The notes beneath the pieces are model-generated. The model was not told the origin of the DNA, did not search any database, and worked only from the letters and a program-made list of their open reading frames with translations. This document shows, one piece after another, positions 321 to 30,843 of a stretch of DNA of 41,271 nt. Each line of letters begins with the position of its first letter. Within the stretch, counting starts at the first letter, position 1. The position numbers and the translations under genes were made by a program. The stretch comes from Candidatus Saccharimonadota bacterium. Its GTDB lineage: Bacteria; Patescibacteriota; Saccharimonadia; Saccharimonadales; Saccharimonadaceae. The DNA is taken from the NCBI GenBank assembly GCA_017514975.1, contig JAFWIF010000036.1:1-41271 (forward strand), written 5' to 3'.

Positions 321-3300
321 CTACTGCGCGACACAGCGGACGGAGAGGCCGTTGGCCCTGACGCTGTAGTTCTGGGGGCTGATGTAGCTACTGCCGATGT
401 CCAGGTAGCGGGCGCTGTCAGTACTGCTTGCGGTAGAGGACCAGAAGTTGCCGTAGCTACCTTGATTGCGCAGTGAGCCAAAGTTGTAGCTGTAGTAGCC
501 TGAGAAGGGGAAACTAAACGGAACGTTCTGCATGGTAGTAGAGCTTGCGCTATTTGAGCTTAGGCCGTAGGTCGTAAAGAGTAGGTTGTTATAGCTCTTC
601 GTACCAGTATTTTGTGGGAGTTGCCAGCCTTTCGGGCAGATAGACTGGTTAGCTTCTTCGCCGCTTCCCATCGTAGCAAGACCAGTGCCAGCCGTAGCAG
701 TGTACCAGTTATAGAGATTACCGTAAGTGGTAGCCTTAGCGTCATGAGTCGAATGTCCAGTAAAGTCATAGAAATGTTTAGCATTAGTCGGATTAGAATA
801 ATTATAGTTATCTGGACCTTCATTCCATTTAAAGTTCGCACCGTAATCGTTGCCGCTTTGCGCTGCCGGCATCGTAAAGTTTTGACTGACGTTCGAATCT
901 TGTGGGGTGAGAACGAGCGGATTCGCTTCAGTTGAGTTATCGCCTAGATCTAGATTCTGCGTCATCCAGCAGTTCCCGTCGGCAAGTTTGGAGACAGTGT
1001 AGCTTTTGTTGTCTCTCGTATCTAGAAGTGTATTTGTCGGTACTTTGCCTGTATCTAATGTAAACTCGGTCGCCAATTCTCTAGCGCTCGTAGTCGGCGT
1101 CGGCGTCTTGCTACATACCTGACTCGTCATCTCCTGCATCGTCGTAATTCCCCAGATACCGCTGTTGTCCTCTTGTATCTCCCCTTCCATACTCTTCACC
1201 ACATCAACCTTTGTCCAAGTAGCGCGGATGGTAACGTCCTCGTCGGGCATCTTAAAGTAGTCGTCATTCAGCATCGTTACGCCGTCCGTTGTAATCTCCC
1301 AGCCCTTAAAGTTGTAGCCAGAGCAGGTCGGCACCGTCTCGCTTATTGCGACCTTTTCCAGTGCTTTATGAGTTTCTTGCGCTGGTACGCCTTGCGGGCT
1401 GCAGTCATTCGGCTTATTCCCGTCGTAGATTACCTTCACGTCTTCTTTTAGGATTGGTGTTTTGGTCGAATTAATATTCTCGCTTGGGGTGTCTTCGAGG
1501 CTGCTCGTTATATCTTCGCCCTTGTTGGTCGAGACGAGGCTGTTGTAATTATTGGTGTTTTTGCGCTTTAGGTCTATCGTTAGTGTAGCTTTGCTACCCG
1601 AGCGGTAGACTCCGCTTAGGTCCCAGGTGACCTTTGGTGGATTGATGCTCGTATCCACCGTCACGCTTCCTTTCGAGGCTTTCGGCTTGCTGCTCATGTC
1701 TATCTCGAAATAATCGTCGTCGATATAATCAGTAAGAACAAAATCATCGTAGATATAAGGCACGGTCGACGCTTCGAAAAGTACGTTATTTAGGCTCTCC
1801 ATATCCGCAATAAACTGGTTGTCTGAAATCTCAACAATCGGCCGCAATACATCTGTTCCCATCTCATATTGAATACCATTCACCGTCAGCCACGGATAGG
1901 TCGTCTTAAGATATTCATACTGAGCAATTTGGTTCGGGGTCTCTACGTTCGGATAGCCGTCAGTCAAGAAAAGCAATACCACGTCTCTATCTGCTTCTTT
2001 TGTATAGCTAGAGAGAATTTGGTCGGCGTTGACGAGCGCTCTGTAGTAATTCGTAGCGCCTGTCGTTGTAAGACCGTCGATGGCATCGAGTACTGTATTC
2101 TTGCTCGTTGTAATACCGGTATTGATTACGGAGCCAGACTCAAAGCTAATTACAGCGGCACGGTTACCGGCCTTTGAGAAGAGGCTGTTCGTAAGCTCCG
2201 CTGCATCTTGCTTGACCCTAGCGAGCTTGTCGCCAGACATCGAGCCAGAGCGGTCGAGGACGAAGATTACGTCCATCTTATTTCCCGAAGTCTTCGCGAT
2301 TGAGTCTATCTCAAACTTTACTCTTGCCTTGCCTAGTCCTATCCATTCCGCGCTCTTATTTATCTTAAAGGCGCCATCTTCGTTGTTGTTGTAGTTCGTA
2401 TGTTCGCTAAGGATTTCGACTGATCTGAGCGGCTGAGTCGTGCCAGCTTTTACGGCGGCGAAGCCTGGTTGCATAACAACGATAGCGGCAGTAACAAAGC
2501 CGAAGACAAAGGAGGCGGTGGCGAGGACTTTAGCTAATTTGCGCTTGTTAGAGCTTTTGTAGGTAGCGAGGGCTTTGGCTAGTTTGCGCTTGTTGGAGCT
2601 TACGAGCTTATTGGAGGGTTTGTATGCATTCGCAAACTTTATAAAGTTTGCTTTTCCTGCGCCTTGTTCTAGGCTCGCCACCTCTTGAGCTTGCCCTGCT
2701 TTCTTTATAAAGTTTTGTGCTAGACCCCCTCTTGCTTGACGCTTTAGTGCCATAAGCTTTACGTTTCGCTTCGAAGCGACAAGAAGCGCAGCTAGCCCTA
2801 AGCCAGCGCCAAACATTACAAAGATGTATGGTGTCGCTTTTGAGATAATGCCAGTTGCTGGGCTAATATTCTTTGTATTAATAAAGGCAGCTTTAGACTT
2901 AGTATTGTAATCGCTGGCGGTGGCGAGGACGACAGTACTCGTAAAGCTATTAGTATTATTACTATTTACAGTCGTAATGTAGTTATTTAGGGCTTCTTCG
3001 GAGACAGTCCAGTTTGCACCGACGAGGATTTGGCTAGTATTGTTGTTTTTACCTATCGTGACAGTTTGGTTATGCTTTAGATAGATAATACAGTTAGTGT
3101 TAAAGGTACAGGTTGTAGGGTTGGTAACGTTTGTGCCTTTGTACTTTACATTACTAGTTGACGTACCAGAGACGGTGTATTTTTCACCTGCAACACCTTG
3201 TCCGCTAACCTTGAGGGTAAACTTGAAATATTCATTCGGATCGGCGACATCTCCCTTAACTTGCTTTGAAATTGTCACGTAGCTGTATTGCTTGAGCACT

Positions 3301-5031
3301 GTTTGGAATGTTGTTGTAGCTATATAGTCTTTTGTTTCATCAAGCAGGTAGTTATTGTCTGCAAGAGCGCCTACCAGCTTTACGGTATTGGTATAATTTT
3401 TCGCGCTGTTTTCCGTAATAGTGTAGCTAGCTTTGACCTTGACACTTGCGCCAGCGGCCAGTTCGGGAATTAAGACGAATTGGTCGGCTTTTACGGTATA
3501 GGCGGAATTTGCGCTGGGATTGGCAACAAACTTTGCGCCGTCTAGCTTTTCTTCGAGGAGAATGTCGTGGATTTTGAAGCTAGCGGTATTCTTTACGGTT
3601 ATTTCAAAGTTTACCGTGTCACCCTCACGATAGCCCGTCGTATTCCCTACTACCGTCTTCGTAATCGTCGGCGCAAACTCTCCCGCCTTCACCATCCATT
3701 CCCCCTGGATTACTACGTCATGTTCCGGCATCTCAAACTCTGCCGCCTTGTACCAACCGAGAAACTCATAACCTGTAGCCGTCGGATTTCCAGCCGTCGT
3801 TACTGTTTCGCCGGGCGCATAGCTAGCACATGCCGGCAACAAGCTATTTGCATTAGGCGGTATAATTGCCCCCTCAAACTCGTAGCAGACTCTGTATTTA
3901 ATCTTTTCGAATTTACCTTTAATGACGACGTTCTTATTCGGCATAATGAAGCCCGTCTCGGTCAGTGTTGCATCTGTACTTTCCCAACCAAGAAAACGAT
4001 ATCCGTCTATAATCGTACCAGGCTCCAGCGTATCTAGCGCTACGCTCGCGCCTTCTTCATAAGATTTAGTCTTTGGCGCAACGTAGTCTTCTGGCTTTTC
4101 TCCAACAATCGTATAAGTTACGCTATACTTCTGACTCTCCGGAATCTTCGTAAAGCTCCCCACAAACTCTACATTTTTCGTCGGCATCGTAAAGTTTTTA
4201 TTCGCATCATTCACACTCACGTCGCTCGTCGTCCAGCCGTTAAAGCTGTATCCAGGCACATTCGGAACACCTGCCACGCCAACGGTTATACCGCTAGCAT
4301 ATTGCGTTGTCGTGGGGACAGTTGGCGCCCCAGCTGGCACTGTACCAGTATAGCGATAAGAAACATTGTATAGCGTTGCCGATTCGCTCCCAATATAGGC
4401 ATGAACTGTATTAGAATTCTTTGAAAGAACACCCTCAGTAACCGATGCAAAATTGTAGAAATCTCGCCTCGTCTCGCCTGCAGCTAAGCTTGGCGTCCTT
4501 GTCTTAATTCCGACTACCAGCTCACAACCAGCCTGCAACTTCTCGACCGTAAAGTTTACCGTTCGCGTACTCGCATTGTAACTCAAGCCATCGACGCCAT
4601 CTATTACGCGCCCCGAACAAGCTTTAGTTTTATCTCCGCGCTGAACTGCACCAATACTACCATCATCCGTACCGATAAATTCAACGAAAGTAAGACCATC
4701 AGGAATTTTATCCGCCACGGTAATATAGTCGCTGGCAATCTGGGCGATATTACTATCGCTCGATTGCACGCCGTTTTTATCGACACCGTCGTATTTAATT
4801 TTGAGATAGTAGTTAAGCTCAGAGTTTTCGGCAACTTTGACGTCGTTATCTAAGACTTCAACCGCCGCCGAGGCGCCTTGTCCAGCTGGACTCCTTAGCC
4901 GCTGGCTCGCTATCACGCCCACCCCTATTAGCACTACTAATGCCAATCCTATTCCGAATAGCTTTCCTAGACTCTTCTTTCTTCTAGATACCCCCCCCCC
5001 GTAAGCTAAGAAGCCTTGCCAAAAACTGCAT
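321..5031 (-). CDS. Giant modular surface protein (SHIRT/InlB-like repeats, VWA, FISUMP), apparently phase-off
   Basis: Probable cell-surface adhesin. The frame is open from a TTG at 4946 (1541 aa). The only start with a Shine-Dalgarno (AAGGGAG) and a nearby -10 (TATAAG, 5062-5067) is ATG 5031, which is one base out of frame because of a ten-G run at 4991-5000. With nine G the product would be 1569 aa with a basic, hydrophobic signal segment. Numbering from TTG: three Cys-poor GYxFxGW-type repeats (SHIRT/InlB-B-like) at about 192-415, a DUF11-like domain at about 420-545, a pilin-like domain at 554-690, SPATG at 695, membrane helix at 706-726, basic linker with a tandem repeat, second helix at 810-832, a VWA domain with MIDAS DRSGSMS at 898-904, a fourth GYxFxGW repeat at 1169-1247, and a Fibrobacter-type FISUMP domain from about 1300 to the end. 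It could still be translated weakly from TTG. Base composition is mosaic. Confidence 0.8.
4991..5000. repeat. Homopolymer (C)10/(G)10 tract inside the 5' coding region
   Basis: Ten consecutive C on the + strand, read as G on the coding strand, 11 codons into the frame from ATG 5031. With ten G that frame ends after 15 codons (MQFLARLLSLRGGGI then TAG). With nine (or twelve) G it joins the long surface-protein frame. Such tracts are the classic substrate of slipped-strand mispairing. Confidence 0.85.
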
Positions 5032-5042
5032 CTTTTGTTTTT

Positions 5043-5067
5043 CTCCCTTGTTTATTTGTGTCTTATA
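5043..5067 (-). promoter_or_regulatory. -10 box and Shine-Dalgarno of the giant surface protein
   Basis: On the minus strand TATAAG (5062-5067) is followed about 13 nt later by AAGGGAG (5043-5049), then 11 nt to ATG 5031. This order (-10, start site, SD, ATG) supports ATG 5031 as the true start, upstream of the poly-G run. No strong -35 is seen. Confidence 0.45.
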
Positions 5068-5264
5068 CTTTGAAAGCTTTAACTCTAGCTACTATCTCGC
5101 GCCCAAAGCCAAAACTTCCTCAAAACCCAAACTAATTTATATTTACTAAAAACTCGCAGTATTTTCGCACCTATCCACCTAACCTTTTATCGGAGAATGC
5201 TAAATGAATATGTTTGTTTTAACTCTTACACTCTACCACATTATATACATACTTTAAGCATTAA
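5068..5264. other. Intergenic, nothing recognised
   Basis: AT-rich spacer between the divergent surface-protein gene and the broken membrane-protein gene. A 29-codon frame from ATG 5197 (after GGAG) runs to 5286 but has no recognisable features. No hairpin terminator or repeat was seen. Confidence 0.3.
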
Positions 5265-6182
5265 CACAATAGCAAATTCGCGATAACCTCCTTTTGTTTC
5301 CGAAACGCCTCTCTTACCGCCTCTGCCAAAATTTTCCCATTTACACTCGTCGTCGTTCTCGCAGTCGCCGTCCTAGGCCTCATAGGGTACATCTGTTACG
5401 ACAAATTCTTCGCCACTACCAACACCAACGTCGCCCAAATCGAAAACTGTCAAAATACCGCCGAAACCGTCTCCGTCGATGAACTCGAAGCTAACATTAC
5501 CGAAATCAACGATGCTGAATCCGAAAGAACGATTAGCAGTCTCGCCTCAAAGATTCTATCCTTTGGCTTCGATGATACCTCCAGTCAATCCCTCATTACT
5601 GGCGGCGACGACCCCGACACTGTCGGCGAAAAATTCGCCTCATCAACTTTCGAGAACCTTAGCGACGGCGCCAAGCTCTAGTCCATCCTCTCGAACCATA
5701 AAGAATCGGAAACCACATGGAACGCTCAAAAACAACAATTCGTCATGAAAAATACCGATGCAATCAAATCCGAATATAAAAACCTCTACGGCACTGAAAT
5801 ATCTTATCCTGATTCCGATTTCGGTAGTTGCCCTGTATATACCTACGATAAAGCCAATGATTCATTCTATGTCAGTTCGGGTTGTGGCGGAAGCGGTTAC
5901 CCTACTGGCTACATCTATAAATACAAATTCGCAAAATCCGACGACACTGCCTACGTCTACTTTGCCGTCGGCGGTCAAGCTTACTCCGACGACGAAGTCA
6001 GCGGCGACATCTATTATGACTTCATCGACGAACCATCCGTCAAAACCGCCCCATCAAACAAAACCAAGCTCCAAGGCATCGATTCAAGCAATTATCAAGA
6101 TTTCGCTCACTATCGCCTCGTCTTTTCGATTGCCCCAGACGGCTCCTATGTTTATCAGACCATCGAATCTGTCTCCGACTAG
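5265..6182 (+). pseudogene. Broken gene for a small anchored extracellular protein
   Basis: One reading frame stays open from 5265 to 6182 except for a single in-frame TAG at 5679-5681. It encodes a basic start, a membrane helix (FTLVVVLAVAVLGLIGYIC, about 5340-5396) and an acidic extracellular part. The C-terminal half contains CPVYTYDKANDSFYVSSGCGG and many Tyr residues. No ATG, GTG or TTG precedes the helix in this frame, so the start also seems lost. The TAG falls in DGAKL-stop-SILSNHKES and would be explained by a TGG-to-TAG change. A 145-aa remainder could restart at ATG 5745. The family is not recognised; its plan (helix plus short Tyr/Gly-rich ectodomain) suggests a surface lipoprotein-like role, which is inference. 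Confidence 0.6.
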
Positions 6183-29248: not shown

Positions 29249-29887
29249 ATGGAAGAACTCTATTTAACCGTTCAGAGGAACGGAATCATCGTAGAAGATA
29301 ACATGTCAGTTACAACGCCCGTGAACGGCGATGCTGCACTCGCCGTTCTAAAAGATGGCAGCTTTGTCGTCATTTCGGACGTTGAAGGAAACTTTAGCGA
29401 CCGACAAAGTCGAGCAATCTCTCAAAAGCTGCTCGATCTACTATATGAACGGAAATTTATCACTAGCACTAGTGATAAAAACGGGTTCATCGCAGAAGAG
29501 CGCGAGGACGAGGGCACCTGCAAACTTGCCAACGGCAAGACTGCACTCGTCAAGGGCAGAATGTTGCACATTTCGCCTCCAAAGGAGACAGACGCAGAGA
29601 GAACTTGTCAATTTATCGACAAAACGGTCGGCGAATTCCTCAAAAAGGAAGGAGGATCAACCCTTTCTAAGGAGGATCTCGTCGTCTCTCGTCTTCTCGA
29701 AGATGAAGAGTGCGATAATCCCGAAGAAGAAGGGGAAGAGACGAATCCCGTCGACTCAGACGCACAGGCGACGGCCGCCGACAAAACTCCCCCGAAAAAA
29801 CCGGCAAGGGCTCTAACGGACGAGGAGAAGCAATTCTCTGAAGAATGGGAAAGCCTGTATGAGGCGTTTTTAGCCGAAGAAGGATAA
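29249..29887 (+). CDS. Unknown 212-aa acidic protein with structured leader
   Basis: Not recognised. ATG 29249 has GGAGG 9 nt upstream. It is a soluble protein with an N-terminal beta-rich half (LYLTVQRNGIIVEDN; AALAVLKDGSFVVISDVEG) and a Glu-rich C-terminal half with a low-complexity linker (DNPEEEGEETNPVD ... TPPKKPARALTDEEKQFSEEWESLYEAFLAEE). No catalytic motif, signal or helix that would span the membrane is seen. Codon use is balanced rather than C-biased. It shares its unit plan (own -35/-10 promoter, SD, hairpin terminator) and size with the 212-aa gene at 21416, but I see no sequence similarity between the two. The leader suggests regulated translation. Confidence 0.7.
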   Translation: MEELYLTVQRNGIIVEDNMSVTTPVNGDAALAVLKDGSFVVISDVEGNFSDRQSRAISQKLLDLLYERKFITSTSDKNGFIAEEREDEGTCKLANGKTALVKGRMLHISPPKETDAERTCQFIDKTVGEFLKKEGGSTLSKEDLVVSRLLEDEECDNPEEEGEETNPVDSDAQATAADKTPPKKPARALTDEEKQFSEEWESLYEAFLAEEG

Positions 29888-29930
29888 CCGCCGGCGGCTA
29901 GCCTCAAGTCACTACAAACAAGTTCCCCCC

Positions 29931-29957
29931 CCCCCCTGTAAAACAGGGGGGATTTTT
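29931..29957 (+). terminator. Rho-independent terminator within a C12 tract
   Basis: 9-bp stem CCCCCCTGT / ACAGGGGGG with AAA loop, followed by ATTTTT. Twelve C in a row (29925-29936) form and precede the 5' arm, so its length may vary among cells. Confidence 0.85.
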
Positions 29958-29991: not shown

Positions 29992-30843
29992 ATGAAAAAA
30001 ATCTTATCATTCGATATCGACCAAACACTCAATATCGCTAAGACTCCTATTCCCGACGAGATTGCCCAACTTTTAATTAATTGTCTCGATTATTTTGAAA
30101 TTTGCCCAATTTCTGGACAAAAATTCGATCAATTCCTTATCCAAATCGTCAACCCTATGCTCAAAAACGGCGTTACTACCGAACAACTCACCCACCTCCA
30201 TCTTTTCGTCGCCCAAGGAACTCAATATTATCGCTACACTAGCACACAGCCAAACGAACACCCAACCCCTTCAGCCACTACGGCCACAAAATCTTCGGAC
30301 AACCCCTCCTACGACGAACAATGCTGGCATAAAGTTTATGATTTCCCATTTTCGGACAAACAGGTATCCGAAATTTCACACGCCCTCGAAACCGCCGCAA
30401 AAGAACTCGGCTATTGGGAAGTCGATAAACTTAAAGAAGGTGACAAAATTATCGAAAATCGCCACACGCTAGTCGCATATTCAGCCCTCGGGCAAAAAGC
30501 CGAAACTGAAGCGAAATATGCCTGGGACCCCGACCACAAAAAACGCGAAAAAATCGTCAAACGGGCTAAAGAAATCGCACCGAACTATTCATATTCGATC
30601 GGAGGAACTACAACAATCGATGTAGTGCCAGAAGGCGTAGATAAATCTTTCGGCATGACTCACCTCATGGAAGAACTCAACGTCGAAAAATCCAACATCC
30701 TCTACTTCGGTGACATGACTCAACCAGGCGGCAATGATTACCCTGTCGTCGAAATGGGTATCGAAACCATTTCTGTGCGTTCTCACGAGGATACTGCCTA
30801 TGCCCTACGCGGCATTCTCGGCGTTCTCGACAAAAAGAGCTAG
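29992..30843 (+). CDS. Phosphomannomutase-like HAD hydrolase
   Basis: 283-aa HAD-superfamily protein resembling eukaryotic-type phosphomannomutase (HAD-IIB). It shows the nucleophile motif FDIDQTLN (Asp8, Asp10), the motif-II-like start of the cap (CPISGQK), the sugar-phosphate stretch YSIGGTTTIDVVPEGVDKSFGMTHL, and the motif IV region ILYFGDMTQPGGNDYPVVEMG. These match the PMM pattern GGxxxDxxPxGxDK ... FFGDKTxxGGNDxE. It would interconvert Man-6-P and Man-1-P, or act as a related sugar phosphatase. Unusually for the window it has both a TATAAT (29963-29968, TGT extension) and a leader with GGAGG 7 nt before ATG 29992. It precedes tpiA. Confidence 0.8.
   Translation: MKKILSFDIDQTLNIAKTPIPDEIAQLLINCLDYFEICPISGQKFDQFLIQIVNPMLKNGVTTEQLTHLHLFVAQGTQYYRYTSTQPNEHPTPSATTATKSSDNPSYDEQCWHKVYDFPFSDKQVSEISHALETAAKELGYWEVDKLKEGDKIIENRHTLVAYSALGQKAETEAKYAWDPDHKKREKIVKRAKEIAPNYSYSIGGTTTIDVVPEGVDKSFGMTHLMEELNVEKSNILYFGDMTQPGGNDYPVVEMGIETISVRSHEDTAYALRGILGVLDKKS

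Follow-up and report, generated by a model that had tools for sequence, protein, structure and literature searches.

A poly-G tract at the start of a large surface-protein gene in Saccharibacteria as a probable phase-variation switch, one of many in its genome

A run of ten G at the start of a gene for a large surface protein in the genome of a tiny gut symbiont (Candidatus Saccharibacteria) is best explained by slipped-strand phase variation, and with high probability the tract works as a translational switch. It lies in a stretch of 41,271 nucleotides, referred to here as the window. The preliminary description had proposed a phase-variable switch at this gene. That proposal is strengthened by tracts throughout the genome, by ON and OFF states in a ratio of about 1:2, by intact starts in homologues that lack a tract, by tracts in promoter spacers and by the failure to find MutS, but the switch is not isolated; it is one of many. 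No report of phase variation in Saccharibacteria or other Patescibacteria was found in a search of the open-access literature, subscription journals not being covered.

The proposed slippage site consists of exactly ten G on the sense strand (positions 5000-4991, minus strand), and the expectation for such a run is 0.17 per shuffled window. The tract is found about ten codons past ATG 5031, in the 5' part of the reading frame, and belongs to the hypermutable length class (at least 8-9 G). As the preliminary description stated, ten G displace ATG 5031 by one base relative to the 1541-codon open reading frame (ORF) of the surface protein (321-4946, minus strand). The sequenced state is correctly called OFF for this start codon, because the short ORF (4984-5031, minus strand) reads MQFLARLLSLRGGGI and stops after 15 codons. 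The Shine-Dalgarno-like AAGGGAG described upstream of ATG 5031 is present as well (approximately 5041-5048, minus strand). Reading on from the tract, the long open frame of the surface protein comprises 1555 codons (321-4988, minus strand). Nine G would join start and ORF as predicted, and so would 12 G; the frame from ATG 5031 then reads MQFLARLLSLRGG(G)VSRRKKSLGKLFGIGLALVVLIGVGVIASQ... and continues into the 321-4946 ORF, while 8, 10 or 11 G leave it out of frame. This frame arithmetic is exact. Directly after the tract the long frame encodes a basic n-region and a hydrophobic segment, SRRKKSLGKLFGIGLALVVLIGVG (4918-4988, minus strand, the end being approximate), which gains a start codon only when the frames are joined; no ATG, GTG or TTG was found in the long frame upstream of the hydrophobic segment.

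The product of the 321-4946 ORF contains Flg_new_2/InlB-type repeats, DUF11, DUF7601, a von Willebrand A (VWA) domain and a C-terminal Fib_succ_major domain, a set as expected of a predicted large surface protein. A search with its N-terminal 600 residues found homologues in 30 of the 45 genomes of the genus, with 42-55% identity for the best of them. Three further homologue loci (L069-L071) come from metagenome-assembled genomes named as other bacteria; their contigs are binned as Clostridia or Erysipelotrichaceae with a homologue 49% identical to the window protein, which could reflect gene transfer or mis-binning. The N-terminus was examined in 21 homologue loci (18 in congeners and three near-identical loci), none of which has a G-run. 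In all 21 a start codon stands in frame with two or more basic residues and with a hydrophobic segment. Since these orthologues in the genus lack the tract, the switch is not conserved.

The intact N-termini of the 21 homologues show what a complete N-terminus should look like and therefore argue against a start downstream of the tract, at TTG 4946 or a codon further inside the ORF, which would make the tract a non-coding curiosity. TTG 4946 is the start picked by the ORF caller and is preceded by GGAA at a distance of a few bases. However, as had been pointed out, this codon cuts the signal segment, falling within the hydrophobic stretch; a protein begun there would be without its basic n-region and would have only half of the hydrophobic segment, and both features are kept in the 21 tract-free homologues. 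In a paralogue that is ON (L010) the frame likewise runs through the tract and on into a segment of this type. A downstream start is thus exceedingly improbable, and translation from ATG 5031 is assumed below.

The promoter of the window gene is likely situated further upstream than first suggested. The hexamer TATAAG (5067-5062, minus strand), earlier taken as the -10, is probably not a promoter, as it lacks a partner and a search over 4700-5700 gave no sigma-70-like site. The promoter is instead assigned near TATAAT (5245-5240, minus strand), a probable -10, because it is part of a leader that is conserved among congeners. Comparison of the congener leaders also shows two conserved elements, AGAGTGTAAG (5234-5225, minus strand) and AATACTGCGAG (5163-5153, minus strand), the second with the start about 120 nt downstream. 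In about ten homologues the leader is composed of a hexamer resembling a -10, AGAGTGTGAR or a similar sequence (in most cases), ACTGCGA and a start codon roughly 15-60 nt further on; the combination GAGTGTRAG...ACTGCGA has a single occurrence in the genome. The location of the window tract is a coding leader and not a promoter, the probable -10 being about 240 nt upstream.

Most of the other tract-bearing surface genes (G000 C2, C18, C20, C23; L328-L342) have a promoter and leader in common, CAAGCATTGACGGAAT ... AGGTCAAAATAAA, with 8 exact and 7 near sites and none for the reversed pattern; some of these sites are without a G-run. This shared promoter (TTGACGGAAT ... AGGTCAAAATAAA) was considered for the window gene and rejected, none of the 8 exact sites being located there. 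Transplantation of a leader cassette is not claimed either, because the 130 nt before the window tract are only weakly similar to other leaders (z at most 4.4, most below 3.5). The leaders of other tract genes are in many cases alike among themselves, with z up to 23.7.

The genome assembly is 94% complete, with 885,703 bases on 39 contigs. It contains 20 runs of at least 8 G. Eighteen of them have at least 9 G, compared with about 2.9 predicted from base composition, and each of 44 congeners has 0-4 runs of this size. The lengths are 8 (two tracts), 9 (eleven), 10 (five), 11 (one) and 12 (one), a distribution that peaks at 9-10, where a chance series would drop steadily from 8. Eleven of the runs have their G's on the sense strand and lie near the beginning of an ORF for a secreted protein, usually 5-21 codons past the start codon. 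The run precedes the hydrophobic segment in ten of these eleven genes and comes just after it in the remaining one (L018). The chance of eleven such placements is about 6e-12, even when every gene is allowed one such site. The proteins encoded include InlB-repeat/Fib_succ_major, SpaA-like, DUF7601, DUF285 and phosphodiester-glycosidase proteins, and three are without Pfam matches. The poly-G artefact of two-colour sequencing was considered as a source of the runs and rejected, as they are bordered by unique sequence and lie on the sense strand of the genes; TAT after the run, with 11 cases against none for the reversed pattern, also counts against it.

About ten bases after the G-run (4981-4990 in the window; also in L010, L012, L014, L017 and L020) resemble TAT[CT]T[AT]A[AG]A[AG]G in any frame, and a similar sequence is seen behind promoter-type runs. 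The motif recurs in promoters as well as in two different reading frames, which hints that the switch may move between genes as a small module. Three other runs were noted. One is a C12/G12 run at 29925-29936 in the window, between a gene ending at 29887 and one starting at 29992; on the plus strand it forms the arm of a hairpin that is followed by T's, and it adjoins TATAAT. Another, of ten G, is found directly before a small gene on a small contig (L021:1-3017; G000 contig C32) that encodes a DUF6273 protein, a small protein and a reverse transcriptase, and the end of the DUF6273 protein looks like the target of a diversity-generating retroelement. The third, of nine G, lies at the point where a ParB-like phage gene (L023:2559-3951) is broken; the gene's downstream part of 288 codons is in a different frame and matches phrog_21498; this is possibly a phase-variable prophage gene.

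Read from ATG, four of the eleven tract genes in the genome are joined (L009:2179, L010, L011:2965 and L018) and seven, including the window gene, are not. Seven homologous arrangements in other Saccharibacteria (L078, L083, L084, L091, L098, L124 and L044) comprise two ON and five OFF, three ambiguous cases (L024, L049 and L093) having been left out. Combined, 6 of 18 are ON and 12 of 18 OFF, which matches the one third ON of a randomly drifting frame. Under a loose rule that accepts any ATG, GTG or TTG ahead of the hydrophobic segment, an intact start is found in 11 of 20 tract genes and in all 21 tract-free homologues (P ~5e-4). A stricter rule gives 6 of 18 tract genes against all of 17 tract-free homologues that were taken from the 21 and read by eye (P ~3e-5), and both P values are only indicative because the tract genes were picked by eye in a small, post hoc sample.

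The difference between tract genes and tract-free homologues speaks most strongly against a homopolymer error in sequencing or assembly, since both groups come from similar assemblies. With such an error the real tract would have a fixed nine G and the gene would always be ON. The window is represented by a single consensus from a platform that is unknown, and a difference of one base is the typical homopolymer mistake. But the same mistake would have to recur in seven of the eleven tract genes of the genome and in five of seven from relatives, although the 1541-codon frame itself is clean, and an error would still leave unexplained why the genome bears such tracts at such sites. The preliminary description regarded error as the main alternative. 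It is unlikely to hold, in our estimate by a wide measure, because isolated errors do not account for the finding that twelve tract genes, spread over several genomes, are out of frame when all 21 tract-free homologues are intact. What stands against phase variation is that tract lengths were not directly seen to vary: there is one consensus per species, and a search of the assembly and of the viral contigs of IMG/VR gave no other allele of the locus.

Poly-G tracts are also found in promoters. Three of the 18 tracts of at least 9 G in the genome lie inside the spacer between a -35 and a -10, from TTGAC(A/T) to TAnnnT (L009:3096, L009:9164 and L014), and L016 and L020 are weaker cases of the same type. 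Among 148 tracts sampled from ten genomes of the Saccharibacteria family, this layout was found for 30 on the G strand and for 5 on the other strand, compared with 0.7% of random positions. The spacers that hold runs are mostly 15, 16, 18 or 19 bp long and rarely 17. One promoter-type run, of nine G, precedes the gene for a secreted protein of 436 amino acids (L009:7808-9118) with a C-terminal NPKTSD, a membrane segment and a KRRS tail, reminiscent of a sortase signal.

Runs in promoter spacers can act only through the length of the DNA, which favours DNA slippage as the common theme. Long homopolymers can also provoke slippage in transcription, and slippage of RNA polymerase or the ribosome on the G-run would give a steady mix of in-frame and out-of-frame products while the DNA length could stay fixed. 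A gene scored as OFF would then remain partly on. Slippage of this kind is powerless on runs between -35 and -10, however, and the DNA frames themselves are joined or unjoined in approximately the ratio of random drift, so that there is very little probability that it explains the tracts. The MutS_V family gave no match in the genome (a 94% complete assembly) or in 10 of 11 relatives; of 14 control genomes, 11 gave a match. If mismatch repair is lacking, slippage in G-runs should stay uncorrected. Tract-free congeners are also without MutS, and its apparent absence is therefore permissive rather than causal.

Such runs also occur beyond this species. Exactly nine G followed by TAT occur in 55 of 394 genomes of the family and in 19 of 61 genera, and some other genera have 50-96 runs of at least 9 G per genome of less than 1 Mb. 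Many of the runs in those genera fit no gene start or promoter when inspected by eye, and the 50-96 runs are therefore not all claimed as switches. A tentative possibility is that Saccharibacteria have a genome-wide poly-G phasome, with about 14 or more switches in the present species and the 50-96 runs elsewhere, acting both on the frames of secreted proteins and on promoter spacers.

The following sequence of events is proposed for the window gene. Transcription would start from the promoter near 5245 and translation from ATG 5031. During replication DNA polymerase would slip on the G-run, so that single G's are gained or lost, and with MutS apparently missing the errors would be left unrepaired. 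With 9 or 12 G the short leader peptide would run on into the signal/transmembrane segment, so that the surface protein is made (ON); with 8, 10 or 11 G translation would end after 15-20 codons (OFF), these frames being read directly from the sequence. The ten other secreted-protein genes with the same arrangement would each switch likewise, and at other genes the length of the run in the -35/-10 spacer would alter promoter strength. Each cell would thereby have its own combination of surface proteins, which probably bears on contact with the bacterium that serves as its host, on phages or on immunity.

Saccharibacteria are ultrasmall. Those that have been cultivated live on the surface of other bacterial cells, and the genes this requires include adhesins (PMC10633639). 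From the domains of the window protein and the need for adhesins in a cultivated relative, we infer that the surface proteins may be linked to host contact. If the switches are real, stochastic switching of surface proteins would allow one clonal population to hold many surface types simultaneously, and this diversity would bear on finding, changing and holding hosts and on avoiding phages. It also means that gene callers truncate or miss such tract-bearing proteins.

Switches of a related kind have been described in several bacteria. In Listeria inlA a homopolymer in the 5' part of a surface protein gene likewise causes a frameshift and a truncated peptide of a few residues (PMC2831843), but there the tract is poly-A in one gene and here it is poly-G in many. 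In Neisseria fetA and porA a homopolymer between -35 and -10 sets the spacing by its length (PMC5320596), as it would here at other loci than the window gene. The Neisseria tracts are poly-C in fetA and runs of T and G in porA, whereas those found here are always G, usually with the apparent -10 directly after. A PTD-repeat gene in Gracilibacterium, also a CPR bacterium, shows localized hypervariation in a predicted surface protein (PMC6851277), though in coding 9-mer repeats with synonymous variation and without an on/off switch of frame.

A further resemblance is to the translational phase variation of Campylobacter with poly-G/C tracts (PMC6321876), where the G's are also on the sense strand within the ORF, lengths peak at 9 and then 10, many loci are found per genome and the ON fraction is near neutral drift. 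In the PhasomeIt survey 53% of Campylobacter poly-G tracts have 9 G and 26% have 10 G, almost always on the coding strand (PMC6321876). Variation in tract length has been measured in Campylobacter, whereas the lengths given here are known from one consensus per species. The genes differ as well, being multi-domain surface proteins of an ultrasmall symbiont with the tract directly before the signal segment. The mechanism is thus one already known from pathogens such as Campylobacter; its lineage and scale appear to be new.
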